Assembly (NCBI GenBank): GCA_017860615.1 | Contig: JAGDMU010000007.1 | Span: 132,534-196,533 of the forward strand | Direction of reading: 5' to 3' | Length of the DNA stretch: 64,000 nucleotides | Source of the DNA: Pseudomonadota bacterium | Lineage (GTDB): Bacteria; Campylobacterota; Campylobacteria; Campylobacterales; Sulfurospirillaceae | In this document: positions 455 to 18,397 of the stretch, one piece after another | Layout of the letters: every line of letters begins with the position of its first letter | Position numbering within the stretch: position 1 is the first letter of the stretch | Notes under the pieces: model-generated | What the model saw: the letters and a program-made list of their open reading frames with translations, nothing else | Told to the model about the DNA's origin: nothing | Databases searched by the model: none | Translations under genes and position numbers: made by a program

Positions 455-467
455 AGTCCTGAAGAAG

Positions 468-580
468 GCAGCTTCAAAATAAATCCTCTTGCAACACGGT
501 TGAGACACGATGGGAGCCCGAAACGCTCCGCTTATTCGTCCCATCGGCTCAAAGTGTTTTATTCGGATTTTTTCTACGCG
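468..580 (+). repeat. Structured imperfect-palindromic intergenic element, copy A
   Basis: This 113-base stretch fills most of the gap between the JAMM protease and sulfite reductase. Its centre folds as GATGGGA (509-515) with TCCCATC (539-545), flanked by TTGAG (500-504) with CTCAA (548-552), then AACAC with GTGTT, then AAATC with GATTT, and it ends near a run of six T. A second copy lies in reverse orientation at 4198-4313 with roughly four fifths identity. One base pair changes on both sides between copies, as expected of a conserved folded structure. It could be a MITE-like or REP-like repeat, a terminator or a small RNA. Confidence 0.8.
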
Positions 581-626
581 CCCTCTTCATCAAAACGTTT
601 ACCTGTAACAACAAGGAGTTACGATT

Positions 627-2912
627 ATGAGCAGATATGAAATCCCCCAAATGGTCTATGATGACCTTGAAACATTTAAAAAAAACCATGCCGATTTTTT
701 AGCGGGAACTTTAGATGAGCTTACCTTTAAAACGATGCGTGTTCCTTTTGGTGTGTATGAACAACGCGAAGCCAACACCTTTATGGTGCGCATCAAACTC
801 GCTGGTGGTATTGTCACCCCAAAACAGCTTTTAACATTGGCTGATTTAGCGCAGAAGTACGCGCATGAAGCGATTCATATCACCACGCGCGGTGGCGCAC
901 AGCTTCACTATGTCAAAATTGAAGACATCATCGACATTATCACAACCTTGCACAGCATCGACCTTAGTGGTCGTGGTGGTGGTGGCAATACTGTCCGTAA
1001 CGTCATGGCTGACCCACTGGCTGGCACAGCACAAGATGAAGTGTTTGATGTTTCCCCCTATGCCCTAGCCATCACCTCTAAAATGTTAGAGCAAAAAGAC
1101 TCATTTGCGCTGCCTCGCAAATTCAAAATTACCTTTAGTGGCTCAGAAGCCGATCGTGGTTATGCAACCATTCACGATGTGGGCTTTATCGCTAAGATTC
1201 AAGATGGCGTTAAAGGCTTTAAACTCTTTACCGCTGGTGGTATGGGTGCGAAGTCTCGTTTGGGAACCTTGTTGCGTGACTTTGTACCAGACACCGAAGT
1301 CTTTTTATACTCACAAGCCATCAAACAAGTGTTCGATAAATACGGCAACCGTAAAAACAAACATGCCGCACGCCTTCGTTTCTTGTTTGAAGATTTAGGT
1401 CTGGAAGAGTTTAACAAACTCCTTGAGGTTGAGCTTGAAGCGGTCAAAGCCAAAGGTGACTGGGAGATGCCAATCACTGAGATTGAAAGAGCACAAGGCG
1501 ACACAACACATGAACCTTTTACTGTTCCAGAGAACATAAAAAAATGGTGGAACCGTTATGTATACGCCCAAAAACAAGAGGGTCTTTACGGATGTAAAGT
1601 GCCTGTACATTTAGGTGACATTCATTTTGAAAACGCTCGCGCTCTTGCCAATGCCCTACTTCCATATGGAGAAGATGTCATTCGCTTTACAGGTGATCAA
1701 AACCTTTACATCAGAAACCTAACAGCACCTCAAATGGCAAGTTTACACGACATCTTGCAAAAATTTTCTGTGGAAGTCTCTAAACCAACGCTCTTTGGTG
1801 ACATGGTTGCGTGTACAGGTGCGGCAACATGTCAGCTCGGCATCGCGCGTCCTCGTGGGGCAGTCGATGCGATTCAAAAACGTCTCAATAAACTCATCGA
1901 TGAACGTGACTATGACGCCCTTCAAGGCTTTAAAATCCATTTATCGGGTTGTCCAAACAGTTGTGGTAAACACCTCATCGGCGACCTTGGTTTCTTTGGA
2001 AAAGTCCAACGCAATGAGGGCTACTCTTACCCAGCTTACAACGTGGTAGCAGGCTCACGCACATCAGGTGATGGCAGTGTTTATGCCCAAAAAGCGGGCG
2101 ATGTTGCAGCCTTCCATGTACCTGCTTTTGTTGAAGAAGTGCTCGATACGTGGCTCAAACACGTCAAAGCGTACAAAAGTTTTGCAGACTGGATCGATGA
2201 TTGTGGACTTGCTATCGTCACCGAAATCAGCAAAAAATACGTCGATATCCCATCGTTCAAAGAGGACAAAAACCCTTACTTTGACTACGATGCGGTAGAA
2301 CTCTTTTCGTTAAAAGGAAGAGGAACAGGTGAGTGTAGTGCAGGTATGTACGACCTCATCGAAGCCGATAAAAAAGCCCTCAAAGAGGCACTTGAGAAAG
2401 AAGAGAAAGATTATGAGCTTATCCGTTTACTCTCTGCTCGTATGCTTTTGGTCACACGTGGCGAAGATGCACGCGATAAAGTAGGCGTTCTAAAAGCCTT
2501 TAAACAGCACTTCATCGACACAACGCTCCTCAATGCTTACTTTGGCACGATGTTAGAGGGTGATGCGGATGAAAAATCGATTGAACTGGCTGAAGAGGTC
2601 ATCAAACTCTATGAGAGTATGGATCACACCCTTAAATTTGCCAAAGAAAAAGAGTTAGCGGCTGCTGCAAATGCTGTGCATGAAGAAAAAGCGGTTCATT
2701 TTAAAGACCTAAGCGGTGTTGCGTGTCCTATGAACTTTGTTAAAACCAAAATGGAACTCTCAAAAATTGGAAGTGGCGAAGTTTTGGAAATTTTACTCGA
2801 TGATGGTGCACCCATCGATAACGTACCAAAATCCGTTGCGGGTGAAGGTCATAAAGTCGAAGCAACCACCAAAGAGGGCAATGGCTGGCGTGTAAGGATC
2901 GTGAAAAAATGA
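627..2912 (+). CDS. Siroheme/[4Fe-4S] sulfite (or nitrite) reductase with C-terminal TusA-like domain
   Basis: NirA/CysI-type hemoprotein of 761 residues that should reduce sulfite to sulfide by six electrons in the cytoplasm. The two ferredoxin-like halves are visible, with a basic, glycine-rich substrate segment (STTRGGAQ-like ITTRGGAQL) near residue 90. The cluster-siroheme motif is ACTGAATC followed by GCPNSCGKH, giving C-x5-C and C-x3-C. The last 70 residues (about 690-761) look like a TusA/SirA domain with DLSGVACPMNFVK, which carries the conserved Cys-Pro but not the second Pro. A nitrite reductase would look similar; the following siroheme synthase and MetY favour sulfite. The ribosome site is AAGGAG. 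The downstream cysG-like gene overlaps by 4 nt. Confidence 0.9.
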   Translation: MSRYEIPQMVYDDLETFKKNHADFLAGTLDELTFKTMRVPFGVYEQREANTFMVRIKLAGGIVTPKQLLTLADLAQKYAHEAIHITTRGGAQLHYVKIEDIIDIITTLHSIDLSGRGGGGNTVRNVMADPLAGTAQDEVFDVSPYALAITSKMLEQKDSFALPRKFKITFSGSEADRGYATIHDVGFIAKIQDGVKGFKLFTAGGMGAKSRLGTLLRDFVPDTEVFLYSQAIKQVFDKYGNRKNKHAARLRFLFEDLGLEEFNKLLEVELEAVKAKGDWEMPITEIERAQGDTTHEPFTVPENIKKWWNRYVYAQKQEGLYGCKVPVHLGDIHFENARALANALLPYGEDVIRFTGDQNLYIRNLTAPQMASLHDILQKFSVEVSKPTLFGDMVACTGAATCQLGIARPRGAVDAIQKRLNKLIDERDYDALQGFKIHLSGCPNSCGKHLIGDLGFFGKVQRNEGYSYPAYNVVAGSRTSGDGSVYAQKAGDVAAFHVPAFVEEVLDTWLKHVKAYKSFADWIDDCGLAIVTEISKKYVDIPSFKEDKNPYFDYDAVELFSLKGRGTGECSAGMYDLIEADKKALKEALEKEEKDYELIRLLSARMLLVTRGEDARDKVGVLKAFKQHFIDTTLLNAYFGTMLEGDADEKSIELAEEVIKLYESMDHTLKFAKEKELAAAANAVHEEKAVHFKDLSGVACPMNFVKTKMELSKIGSGEVLEILLDDGAPIDNVPKSVAGEGHKVEATTKEGNGWRVRIVKK

Positions 2913-4177
2913 GTACCTTAGGCATTGCACTCACGCCGAAACGCATGCTTTTGATCGGTGCTGGAAAAGTCGCCGCACAGAAAGCCAGAGTGCTTGATAG
3001 TCTTGATTTTGCGTACGAAATCGTTGCAGAATCAAGGCTTGATGCCTATTTCGAGTCAAAAGAGTTACGCCTTAAACCTTTTGAAGATGCCGATGCAAAG
3101 GGCTTTGAAGTGATTATCGATGCGACTGGGAACGAGCATGTGACCAAGCGTCTTGTAGCGCTTAAACCACTGCATCATTTCTGGCTCAATGTCGTCGATG
3201 TTCCAGAGCTCTGTGATTTTTACTTTAGCGCCCTTACCCGTCGTGGCGATATTCAAGTCGCTGTCAGCAGTGGCGGGAGTTCTCCAACACTCGCACAAGT
3301 GATCCGCGACAAAATCGAGCGCCTTTTACCGCGTGAGTTAACCTCTTTGATAGAACGCCTCAAAAATGAGCGTAAAAAACCTAATCGTGATCTTGAAAAA
3401 TTGAAAACTATCGCCAAAGAAGGTGTTGGAAAAGTGTTCCTCATCGGCTGTGGAACAGGCTACGTGGGCAATCTCACCTTAGATGCGTTAAATGCGTTTG
3501 AGCTTTTAGATGTTGCTTTGGTGGATGCTTTAGTCTCTAAAGAGATTCAAGCCCTTATTCCCGCTTCATGTAAAGTCGTCGATGTGAGCAAAAAAAAGGG
3601 ATTTCACTCTAAAACACAAGATGAGATCAACGCGCTCTTACTCGAATACGCCAAACAAGGCTTGGTTGTCGGACGCCTTAAAGGCGGTGACCCACTTCTG
3701 TTTGGTCGGTTGGGTGAAGAAAAGCAGGTTTTGGCGCAACATGGCATCGCTTTTGAAGTCATCAATGGAGTCAGTTCCGCGTTTCGCTCGTGTACGGTCT
3801 CAGGTATTGTGCCAACCATTCGCGACATTTCTAAAGGGGTGAGCATCGTCTCTGCACACCTGAGAGAAACGCTGTTTAACGATGAATGGATACCGCTCAT
3901 TCGTCAGCCTTTGCACACCGTTATCGTGTTAATGGCACACAGTTTTGCGAAAAAGATCGAAGATGCCATAGCCAAAGCAGACATCGATCCTGATCTTCCT
4001 GCTGCGTTTGTCTCGAAGATTGACCTACCAGATCAGATCACCATAGTGGGAACTGTGAGAAAATTGGATAAAATGGCAACATTATGTGCCACACCTGCCG
4101 TGCTCATCATCGGTGAGTGTGTCGCAAAAGAGAACATAGTACCAGCCGAGAATAGCGGCAAAATCATTTACATATAA
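2909..4177 (+). CDS. cysG: Siroheme synthase, fused precorrin-2 dehydrogenase/ferrochelatase and uroporphyrinogen III methyltransferase
   Basis: Makes siroheme, the cofactor of the reductase encoded just upstream. The N-terminal part (about 1-150) is the Met8/CysG dehydrogenase-chelatase fold with a nucleotide motif LLIGAGKVAAQKA and SSGGSSP. The C-terminal part (about 170-415) is a SUMT methyltransferase with GCGTG and GRLKGGDPLLFGR. At 422 residues it is somewhat shorter than the enterobacterial CysG of about 457. Its ATG overlaps the reductase stop (ATGA), so the two proteins are probably made together. Confidence 0.9.
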   Translation: MSTLGIALTPKRMLLIGAGKVAAQKARVLDSLDFAYEIVAESRLDAYFESKELRLKPFEDADAKGFEVIIDATGNEHVTKRLVALKPLHHFWLNVVDVPELCDFYFSALTRRGDIQVAVSSGGSSPTLAQVIRDKIERLLPRELTSLIERLKNERKKPNRDLEKLKTIAKEGVGKVFLIGCGTGYVGNLTLDALNAFELLDVALVDALVSKEIQALIPASCKVVDVSKKKGFHSKTQDEINALLLEYAKQGLVVGRLKGGDPLLFGRLGEEKQVLAQHGIAFEVINGVSSAFRSCTVSGIVPTIRDISKGVSIVSAHLRETLFNDEWIPLIRQPLHTVIVLMAHSFAKKIEDAIAKADIDPDLPAAFVSKIDLPDQITIVGTVRKLDKMATLCATPAVLIIGECVAKENIVPAENSGKIIYI

Positions 4178-4197
4178 AAAAGTAAATCAGCTTAAAC

Positions 4198-4313
4198 CGC
4201 GTAGAAAAAATCTGCACGAAACACTTTAAGCCGATGGGACAAAAAAGCGTGAGCGTTTTGGGGCTCCCATCGTGTCTTAACCGTGTTGAGAAAAGATTTA
4301 TTTCGGAAGCTGG
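4198..4313 (-). repeat. Structured imperfect-palindromic intergenic element, copy B (inverted)
   Basis: Reverse-complement copy of the element at 468-580, filling the gap between cysG and metY. The GATGGGA/TCCCATC core is unchanged. The adjoining pair TTGAG/CTCAA of copy A is TTAAG/CTTAA here (4226-4230 with 4276-4280), a matched change on both arms. Outer AACAC/GTGTT and AAATC/GATTT pairs are kept. The copies face each other across 3.6 kb holding exactly the sulfite reductase and siroheme synthase genes. Confidence 0.8.
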
Positions 4314-4341
4314 TTTATAAAAAGTTAAAGAAGGATATTTT

Positions 4342-5586
4342 ATGGGATTTACCACCAAAGCATTGCATACACAACCTTTAGCAAAAGATGCCCATGGCGC
4401 AATGCGCTTCCCCATCTACCAAAATTCTGCTTTTGAATTTGAAAAAGCAGAAGACTTGGAAGCGGTGTTTAAAGGCTTCAAATACGGTCATGTTGAACAC
4501 AAAATCAGAACCGTCAGTGGAGCGCTGGGTGTTCTAGCCACCGCAACAGGCATGGCTGCCATCTCAAACATGCTGTTTGCATTGCTTAAAAGTGGCGATA
4601 ATATCATCACAACCAAGTACCTCTTTGGCAATACCCTCTCTCTCTTCCAAACGCTTTTGAGTGATTTTGGTGTCGAGGTACGCTATGTTGATTTGAACAA
4701 TTTGGATGAAATCAAAGCGAATATTGACGCTAAAACACGCCTTCTTTTTTGTGAAAGCATCAGCAATCCGCATCTGATCGTGCCTGATTTTACCGCCATC
4801 AAAAGCCTTTTAGCAGAGAACAATGTTCCGCTCATCGTCGATACCACAGCAACGCCTTGGAATCTCTTTGATGCGAAAAAACACGGCGTGGATGTTGAGA
4901 TCGTCTCCGCTACCAAATACATCTCAGGCGGCGGACACGTACTAGGTGGTCTTATCGTCGATAATGGAACGTATAACTGGGGTAACCATGCAACGCTTGC
5001 ACCTTACACCCGCAAATTTGGGCCTAATGCGCTCATCTTACGCCTTCGCAAAGAGACCTACCGCAACCTTGGCGCAACACTCTCGCCTCAAAGTGCGTAC
5101 TTACTCTCCTTAGGTCTTGAAACGATGGATTTGCGTGTCAAACGAAGCTGTGATAATGCCCTAGCTGTGACAAAACATCTTCAAACCAAACCTGAAATCA
5201 TCAACGTTTCTTACCCCTTTTTAGAAGACTCGACTTCGTATGAAAATGCGAAAAAACACTTTAGCGCGGGTGGCGGCATCGTCAGTTTTAGCTTTGGAGA
5301 CAAAGCCAGCGCTTACGCCTTTTTAAATCGCCTAAACATCATCAAACGAGGCACCAACGTTCAAGACAATAAATCGCTTATCATCGCAACCTACCACACG
5401 ATTTACGCGGAGTATTCGACGGAGCAAAAAGTGAGTTTTGGACTAACCGAGGGGATGATACGCCTTTCTGTAGGTATCGAGGATTTAGAAGACTTGATTG
5501 CCGACATTGACCAAGCCCTAGCGCATGAAGAGCCTTTGGTGATGAACGAAACAAGTCCAGAACAAACATATACCTTTGATGTATAA
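4342..5586 (+). CDS. metY: O-acetylhomoserine sulfhydrylase (MetY type, PLP enzyme)
   Basis: Cys/Met metabolism PLP enzyme of 414 residues that adds sulfide, or protein-bound thiocarboxylate sulfur in the Wolinella system, to O-acetylhomoserine to make homocysteine. The PLP lysine is Lys192 in SATKYISGGG, and the glycine-rich ATGMAAISNML segment lies near residue 70. Small OAH sulfhydrylases and cystathionine synthases share the fold; the sulfite reductase and JAMM protease upstream support the MetY assignment. AAAGAAGGA precedes the ATG. The end is followed by a small stem-loop at 5594-5608. Confidence 0.85.
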   Translation: MGFTTKALHTQPLAKDAHGAMRFPIYQNSAFEFEKAEDLEAVFKGFKYGHVEHKIRTVSGALGVLATATGMAAISNMLFALLKSGDNIITTKYLFGNTLSLFQTLLSDFGVEVRYVDLNNLDEIKANIDAKTRLLFCESISNPHLIVPDFTAIKSLLAENNVPLIVDTTATPWNLFDAKKHGVDVEIVSATKYISGGGHVLGGLIVDNGTYNWGNHATLAPYTRKFGPNALILRLRKETYRNLGATLSPQSAYLLSLGLETMDLRVKRSCDNALAVTKHLQTKPEIINVSYPFLEDSTSYENAKKHFSAGGGIVSFSFGDKASAYAFLNRLNIIKRGTNVQDNKSLIIATYHTIYAEYSTEQKVSFGLTEGMIRLSVGIEDLEDLIADIDQALAHEEPLVMNETSPEQTYTFDV

Positions 5587-5670: not shown

Positions 5671-6690
5671 ATGAAAATTGCACTACTCATGAGTGGAGGG
5701 ATTGACTCAAGTTACTCCGCTTATCTGCTTAAACAAGAAGGTCATGAGGTTGTGGGGATTTACCTCAAACTTCATGAAGATGAGAAAAAACACGCGGTTA
5801 ACATCGCCAATATTGAAAAAGTAAGCCACCATTTGGGCATTGAAACGCATATTATCGATGCAAAAGCCCTTTTTAAAGAGCATGTGTATGACTATTTTGT
5901 GCGCTCCTATGAGCAAGGCTTAACGCCCAATCCATGCGCCTTTTGTAATCCTAGAATGAAATTTGGCTTCGCTTTTGAGAAAGCGATGGAGATGGGCTGT
6001 GAAAAAATTGCCACAGGGCATTATGCACGCATAAAAGAGGGTCACATTCAAGAAGCGTATGACATGAGTAAAGATCAAAGCTACTTCCTTTTTGGTCTTA
6101 AAAAAGAGGTGATTGAAAAGATTCTTTTCCCACTCGGTGGCATGAAAAAAGAGGATATTAAACCTATTGCCCTTGAAAAATTGCCTTGGCTTGGAACCTT
6201 AGAGACCTACAAAGAGTCGCAAGAGATCTGCTTTGTCACCGACACCTACATTGAAGTGTTAAAAAAACACCTCAATGTCGATCAAAAAGGGGTCGTCAAA
6301 GATACCGATGGTAAAGTCATCGGTGAGCACAAAGGCTACATGCACTATACCATCGGCAAGCGCAAAGGCTTGACCATCAACGGTGCACATGACCCACATT
6401 TTGTCGTTGGCATTGATGCTAAAACCAATACCGTTGTCGCAGGTACCAAAGAAGAACTTTTGCAAAAACGCGTTGTGGCACAAAACTTCTCTTTACCAGC
6501 AGATTTTAAAGAGGGAACGTATGGTGTGAAAGTGCGCTATCGCAGCCCACAAGCAAAAGCACATGTAAAAATCGAGGGTGATAAAATCATCGCGGAGTTA
6601 GAAACAGGCGTTTACGGTCTTGCAAGCGGGCAAGCGCTTGTGGTCTATGCGGATGATTTAGTCCTAGGCGGCGGCTGGATCGAAACGTAA
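5671..6690 (+). CDS. mnmA: tRNA-specific 2-thiouridylase MnmA
   Basis: Adenylates and thiolates U34 of tRNA-Lys, -Glu and -Gln. The N-terminal PP-loop SGGIDSS (residues 8-14) binds ATP. The two catalytic cysteines are visible: the first in NPCAFCNP (family form NP-x-x-x-C) and the second in ESQEICFV. The C-terminal part has the beta-barrel region (KVRYR, GGGWI ending). The 339 residues compare with about 360 for the family. It may share the sulfur supply of the genes upstream but has its own leader. Confidence 0.9.
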
Positions 6691-17437: not shown

Positions 17438-18397
17438 CTATAAAAGTGCATTAAACAGATATCCAACACCCATAATACCCACCGCCACGATGCCAAAAAA
17501 AGTCGCAATAAGCTTTACATGTAAGATGCGTTTCAAGATCATTGCTTCAGGCAAACTCAGCGCCGTGATCGCCATCATAAAACTAAGAGCCGTACCAAGG
17601 AGCATTCCTTTAGACGTCAAAACCTCGATTAAAGGCATGACACCTGCCGCGTTAGAGTACATCGGAACTCCAAGAATTACAGCTAAAGGCACGCTATACC
17701 ACGTATTACTTCCTGCGTATTTCACGATAAATTCGGTTGGAATGTAGCCATGAATAAATGCTCCAATGCCCACACCAATCAGCACATAAAGGTAAATTTT
17801 TTGCAAAATATCCATTGTATAATTCCACGACTCTTTGACTCTTTTTTTCATCGTGAGTTTAATCTCGACATCTTCCAAATCACCACTCATAGGAACGACT
17901 GGAATCAGTACGTATTTTTCCATACCCAGACGACCTACTACAAAACCACCAATAATGGCGACTAAAAGCCCAAATCCGATGTAAAGTGCCGTGATTTTCC
18001 AGCCAAAAAGTCCAAACAAAAGGGCAATGGCAATCTCATTATTCATAGGAGACGAGATAAGAAAACTAAAGGTAATGCCAAGCGGAATGCGCGCTTGCAT
18101 AAACCCTAAAAACAGAGGAATGGCAGAGCAACTGCAAAACGGCGTGATAATGCCAAAAAGAGCCGCTAAGATATTGCCTGTAAATTCACTTTTACCTTGC
18201 AGATAGACTCTGACTTTTTCAGTGTTAAAGTACGTTCGTAAAAAACTCACCGCAAAAATTATCAGTACCAACAACATATAGATTTTGATGGTATCATAGA
18301 TAAAAAAGTGAATGGCACCTCCTGCTTGCGATGTTTTATCCATTCCAAACAGATCCACTACCAAAGCATCAACGATTCTTTCCCACCAATCAAACAT
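17438..18397 (-). CDS. ArsP-like permease (PF03773 family)
   Basis: Membrane protein of 319 residues with about eight to ten hydrophobic segments. The family signature PFCSCSAIPLF is present, with the cysteines in a membrane segment, followed by SFLISSPMNNE and a second half GVPMYSNAAGVMPL. ArsP of Campylobacter jejuni exports trivalent organoarsenicals, and related permeases may move other metals. Its place in an arsenic operon supports metalloid export but not the exact substrate. A frame start at 18433 exists; ATG 18397 with AAAGGATAC 5 nt upstream is preferred. Confidence 0.8.
   Translation of the reverse strand: MFDWWERIVDALVVDLFGMDKTSQAGGAIHFFIYDTIKIYMLLVLIIFAVSFLRTYFNTEKVRVYLQGKSEFTGNILAALFGIITPFCSCSAIPLFLGFMQARIPLGITFSFLISSPMNNEIAIALLFGLFGWKITALYIGFGLLVAIIGGFVVGRLGMEKYVLIPVVPMSGDLEDVEIKLTMKKRVKESWNYTMDILQKIYLYVLIGVGIGAFIHGYIPTEFIVKYAGSNTWYSVPLAVILGVPMYSNAAGVMPLIEVLTSKGMLLGTALSFMMAITALSLPEAMILKRILHVKLIATFFGIVAVGIMGVGYLFNALL

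Follow-up and report, generated by a model that had tools for sequence, protein, structure and literature searches.

Near the start of the window, the whole stretch of 64,000 nucleotides analysed here, genes for a NirA-type reductase and a CysG-type siroheme synthase are bracketed by two copies of an imperfect palindrome in opposite orientations, and the question that this locus raises is what such a pair is doing there. The first-pass annotation had offered four readings: a MITE-like repeat, a sulfur-related RNA, paired terminators, or arms allowing inversion of the enclosed two genes. The relevant features are as follows.

59-454: JAB/desampylase-like gene
460-468, plus strand: left site-specific outer arm of copy A, TGAAGAAGG
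468-580, plus strand: element copy A, a hairpin flanked by the JAB/desampylase-like and NirA-like genes
507, plus strand: bulged A of copy A
517-519, plus strand: CCC bulge of copy A
582-589, plus strand: right site-specific outer arm of copy A, CCTCTTCA
627-2912: NirA-type sulfite/nitrite reductase
2909-4177: CysG-type siroheme synthase
4182-4197, plus strand: left outer arm of copy B, limits approximate
4198-4313, minus strand: element copy B, in opposite orientation, flanked by the CysG-like and MetY-like genes
4273: T corresponding to the bulged A of copy B, which lies on the minus strand
4304-4319, plus strand: right outer arm of copy B, limits approximate
4342-5586: MetY-like gene
5671-6690: MnmA

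The inverted relationship and the palindromic character of each copy are as first described, with the identity somewhat higher than the 80 percent or so then estimated: by DNA similarity the full-length copies match with 85% identity across 112 of 113 bases (E 1e-28), and the inverted arm pairs 529-580/4198-4249 and 477-523/4257-4303 are each 87% identical. The paired region is slightly longer than first annotated, with the outer arms reaching to about 460-589 and 4182-4319. The compensating change of TTGAG/CTCAA to TTAAG/CTTAA is present in the sequence as GTTGAG...CTCAAAG in copy 1 and GTTAAG...CTTAAAG in copy 2. Each copy folds well beyond its shuffled versions on either strand (z -3.95 to -5.11, equalled by 0 of 200 shuffles). 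The NirA-type reductase carries a fused C-terminal TusA sulfurtransferase domain at residues 694-760.

These copies are members of an uncatalogued family of hairpin repeats, about 110 bases long and thinly scattered in many Campylobacterota; no family in Rfam matches the element. The genome of the window, a Sulfurospirillum relative, holds only these two copies, whether by DNA similarity, model R1 or model R2. DNA similarity alone detects it in 17 of the 44 genomes of the taxonomic family, all in one genus, model R1 in 28 of the 44, and covariance model R2, built from 47 diverse rows, in 41 of 397 Campylobacterota genomes belonging to 15 of 68 genera, with 1-9 copies each. The named records hit in a pattern scan belong to Sulfurospirillum, Nitratiruptor and other Campylobacterales, except for one match put down to chance; the match at L095 was judged to be chance.

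Covariation, the analysis originally suggested for the pair, was found across the family: 25 of 33 stem pairs are altered on both sides and 91.6% of cells remain paired, a level reached by 0 of 500 shuffles, though these counts lean towards structure, since the rows were aligned to the model itself and 2 of the 47 repeat, from the opposite strand, copies that were already included. On one strand the unpaired positions are nearly invariant, the bulged A at 96% and the CCC at 96-100%, as are one G and one A in the internal loop of that same strand. A hairpin working in a transcript should favour G-U pairs, and that preference is seen on neither strand, which fits a hairpin kept as DNA: on the modelled (bulge) strand there are 30 G-U pairs vs 45 A-C mismatches, and in the Sulfurospirillum copies, counted on the gene-sense strand, 30 vs 41, while a tRNA control from the same loci gives 13 vs 2 (Fisher p about 0.001, for rows that are not independent). 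The hairpin thus appears to be maintained as DNA and not as a leader RNA.

In Sulfurospirillum the element occupies site A before nirA, site B before metY, site C before rdgB and site D before metX, a further copy lies within an ORF, and there are more near recQ, rpe/argJ and uraA/dxr; in other lineages it is found at priA/ispG, ispG/dnaB, mnmG, dnaE, cdsA, cydB, metE (the MetE-like site being that of family f7) and more. Apart from the few genes formally tested, these gene names are by-eye readings of translations. The nirA, metY and metX sites, together with the MetE-like gene, are what recommend a sulfur- or methionine-responsive RNA, a riboswitch or attenuator standing before nirA, metY, metX and metE, as the first-pass annotation had proposed in general terms. 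So many of the sites have no connection with sulfur that a sulfur-regulon reading was dropped, and sister species carry the element at the same site in opposite orientations; the fixed orientation to the gene that would be looked for in a riboswitch or leader RNA is lacking at sites A, B and D. With no Rfam match and no wobble signature of the RNA type, a sulfur-responsive RNA is very improbable, and the element is not particularly linked to sulfur genes.

Paired intrinsic terminators are suggested by the strength of the hairpins and their place at the boundaries of genes. The terminator scan, however, gave hits at the level of shuffled sequence, the sole hit in copy A is without a real T-tract, and the GC-rich stem followed by a T-run that characterizes an intrinsic terminator is not seen in the element; nirA and metY are moreover co-directional with the genes upstream of them. 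Termination is accordingly most unlikely to be the role of the pair. Copies are mostly intergenic, chiefly between co-directional genes and sometimes between convergent or divergent ones, as is expected of intergenic repeats.

Empty orthologous sites A and B were found among relatives, so the element is polymorphic at these sites. For 27 of 30 copies the nearest relative is the same-site copy of another species, which indicates that the insertions are older than these species and that any reorientation has been local. Site A is retained in 15 of the 19 Sulfurospirillum genomes that have nirA, which suggests that the element may be useful to the host as well.

At sites A, B and D of Sulfurospirillum the same neighbouring genes are found with the element in one orientation or the other. 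Between the genome of the window (G000) and its sister G021 the cores are 97% identical yet flipped, and when the orientation at site A is placed on the nirA tree at least 5 changes are needed, a scatter about as great as for shuffled labels, although recombination of nirA could inflate this count. The element of Sulfurospirillum stays at its site, and its core repeatedly flips. The outer arms are paired, and they are unrelated between sites and, at site A, even between clades; that they are left unchanged is as expected if inversion runs across the paired arms. Flip-flop at hairpins, in which the region between inverted arms turns repeatedly in place, is documented in chloroplast DNA (PMC6824564); the repeated in-place flip is common to both systems, the difference being that a short loop turns there, and here the turning unit is a structured core about 100 bp long. 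Quite another kind of inversion, phase variation in which the two copies serve as arms to turn the whole nirA-cysG block, had been suggested by the two 85% identical copies lying inverted in the window. Several relatives carry the two copies in direct orientation, and in every locus read the enclosed genes keep the same order and direction relative to both neighbours, with both junctions unchanged. There is no sign of block inversion, and the chance that it occurs is slight in the extreme.

One site lies within a coding sequence. In G033 and G026 the element forms an in-frame insert of 34-35 residues, in opposite orientations, in a nucleosidase-like ORF (a weak phosphorylase-superfamily match, under the curated cut-off), six homologues of which have no insert. 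At the other extreme is a prophage of G211 with at least 9 copies ahead of its genes, including those for terminase, portal, head and baseplate proteins; several are in tandem with a period of 111-114 bp, and all the copies read are in the sense orientation of the next gene. This prophage lies at L239, 5486-18162, and its tandem arrays of the hairpin unit sit immediately upstream of structural genes. A phage origin of the element was considered and not upheld, the prophage unit being unmatched in phage records and three patterns having no match in IMG/VR.

The main rival to a DNA element is RNA processing that works in either orientation, that is, an intercistronic RNA hairpin such as an RNase III processing site or an mRNA-stabilising site between co-directional genes. 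Both strands do fold well, copies mostly lie between co-directional genes and near the next start codon, and Correia and ERIC insertions affect transcripts in such a way (PMC10969869); a start codon 17-50 nt downstream of the element, as in several cases, and the uniform sense orientation in the G211 prophage would fit a 5'-UTR role. The stems nevertheless have no excess of G-U over A-C, some copies are between convergent or divergent genes or within an ORF, and the bulge sequence is kept, though flipping would swap in its complement in RNA. An RNA hairpin is therefore regarded as an unlikely, if serious, explanation.

The pair are probably best understood as two insertions of long standing from a dispersed family of non-coding palindromic repeats, of the RPE or MITE type, recognised as folded single-stranded DNA and with a core that inverts at the hairpin; of the original suggestions it is the MITE-like repeat that survives. 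Such a repeat would have spread as non-autonomous mobile DNA, a single strand folding into the bulged hairpin that a trans-acting enzyme would recognise. The resident hairpin would stay near-palindromic and would flip by template switching or by recombination across the arms, much as in the hairpin-associated small inversions of chloroplasts.

The family is new in detail, is not specific to sulfur, and is of a general kind already known. Rickettsia palindromic elements are dispersed palindromes of about 100-150 bp that can sit in frame in protein genes (PMC10969869), as the present element does at one site; by description they differ from it, the present element being mostly intergenic and low in copy number, with a core that is shared across the phylum and has conserved bulges specific to one strand. 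ERIC, Correia and other MITEs are likewise small non-coding intergenic palindromic repeats, present or absent among relatives, but here there are no shared terminal inverted repeats, the paired arms varying by site. No distinct terminal sequence was seen, and the outer arms differ at every site. Comparison with empty sites A and B and the ORF site gave no clear target-site duplication, the limits being ambiguous in a short palindromic context. Integron attC sites are comparable in being imperfect palindromes whose extrahelical bases are conserved on a single strand, but neither cassette arrays nor attC core sites were noticed here.

REPs are 21-65 nt long, occur in many copies and have a 5' GTAG/GTGG foot (PMC6006769). 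The hairpin with conserved mismatches, potentially readable as single-stranded DNA, resembles the REP/RAYT system. The foot has no true counterpart here: CGCGTAG is confined to the minus strand of part of the copies at sites A and B, and GTAG is absent at sites C and D and in other genera. A Y1 transposase gene is present in 23 of 24 genomes, usually as one copy each, flanked by its own 22-nt inverted repeat, which is unlike the element, and no element match was found in the 12-20 kb around six Y1 genes. On both grounds Y1 is not supported as the partner, and mobilisation by a Y1/RAYT enzyme was set aside. The Y1 (PF01797) gene lies at L207, 6491-7264, and in L208-L212, upstream of a gene that reads as gyrA; the inverted repeat AGGGGTCAGGGCTAAACTTTTA flanks it in at least 5 of 6 genomes, and a similar motif occurs elsewhere in the genome (L035). 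It is conceivable, and put forward only tentatively, that an unrecognised folded-ssDNA enzyme, neither Y1 nor an integron integrase, takes the element as its substrate and spreads it through both chromosomes and prophages of Campylobacterota.

Two other repeats were met in the course of this analysis. The palindrome TTACATGTAA is found 238 times in the genome of the window, vs 4 for a reversed control, and in the window itself at 17515, 20576, 27241 and 31622. Most congeners have about 1000-1500 occurrences, certain other genera within the family have hundreds, and genomes beyond the family have 0-6; TTACATGTAA is a highly iterated palindrome like the cyanobacterial HIP1. It is near about 6 of 10 Sulfurospirillum element sites and also within the empty ORF site; since the intergenic density of TTACATGTAA is high, this proximity is at best suggestive, and targeting by the element was set aside. 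A second structured repeat, GCACCAAAGGTGCGCGGGC...GCGTAGCTTTTAGAGC..., was observed in L128, L133, L156 and L178-L202, often at about 20 or more per genome and sometimes in tandem; it has no match in Rfam, and in five genomes it occupies site B within similar outer arms.

The element adds to the Campylobacterota a phylum-wide repeat family that is missing from Rfam. Its strong covariation without the wobble signature of RNA is a caution for RNA discovery based on covariation, and its conserved bulges suggest a specific binding partner, which could be looked for. Its in-place flips, seen between copies of 97-98% identity, make it possible to measure how fast and by what mechanism hairpins drive inversion in bacteria.
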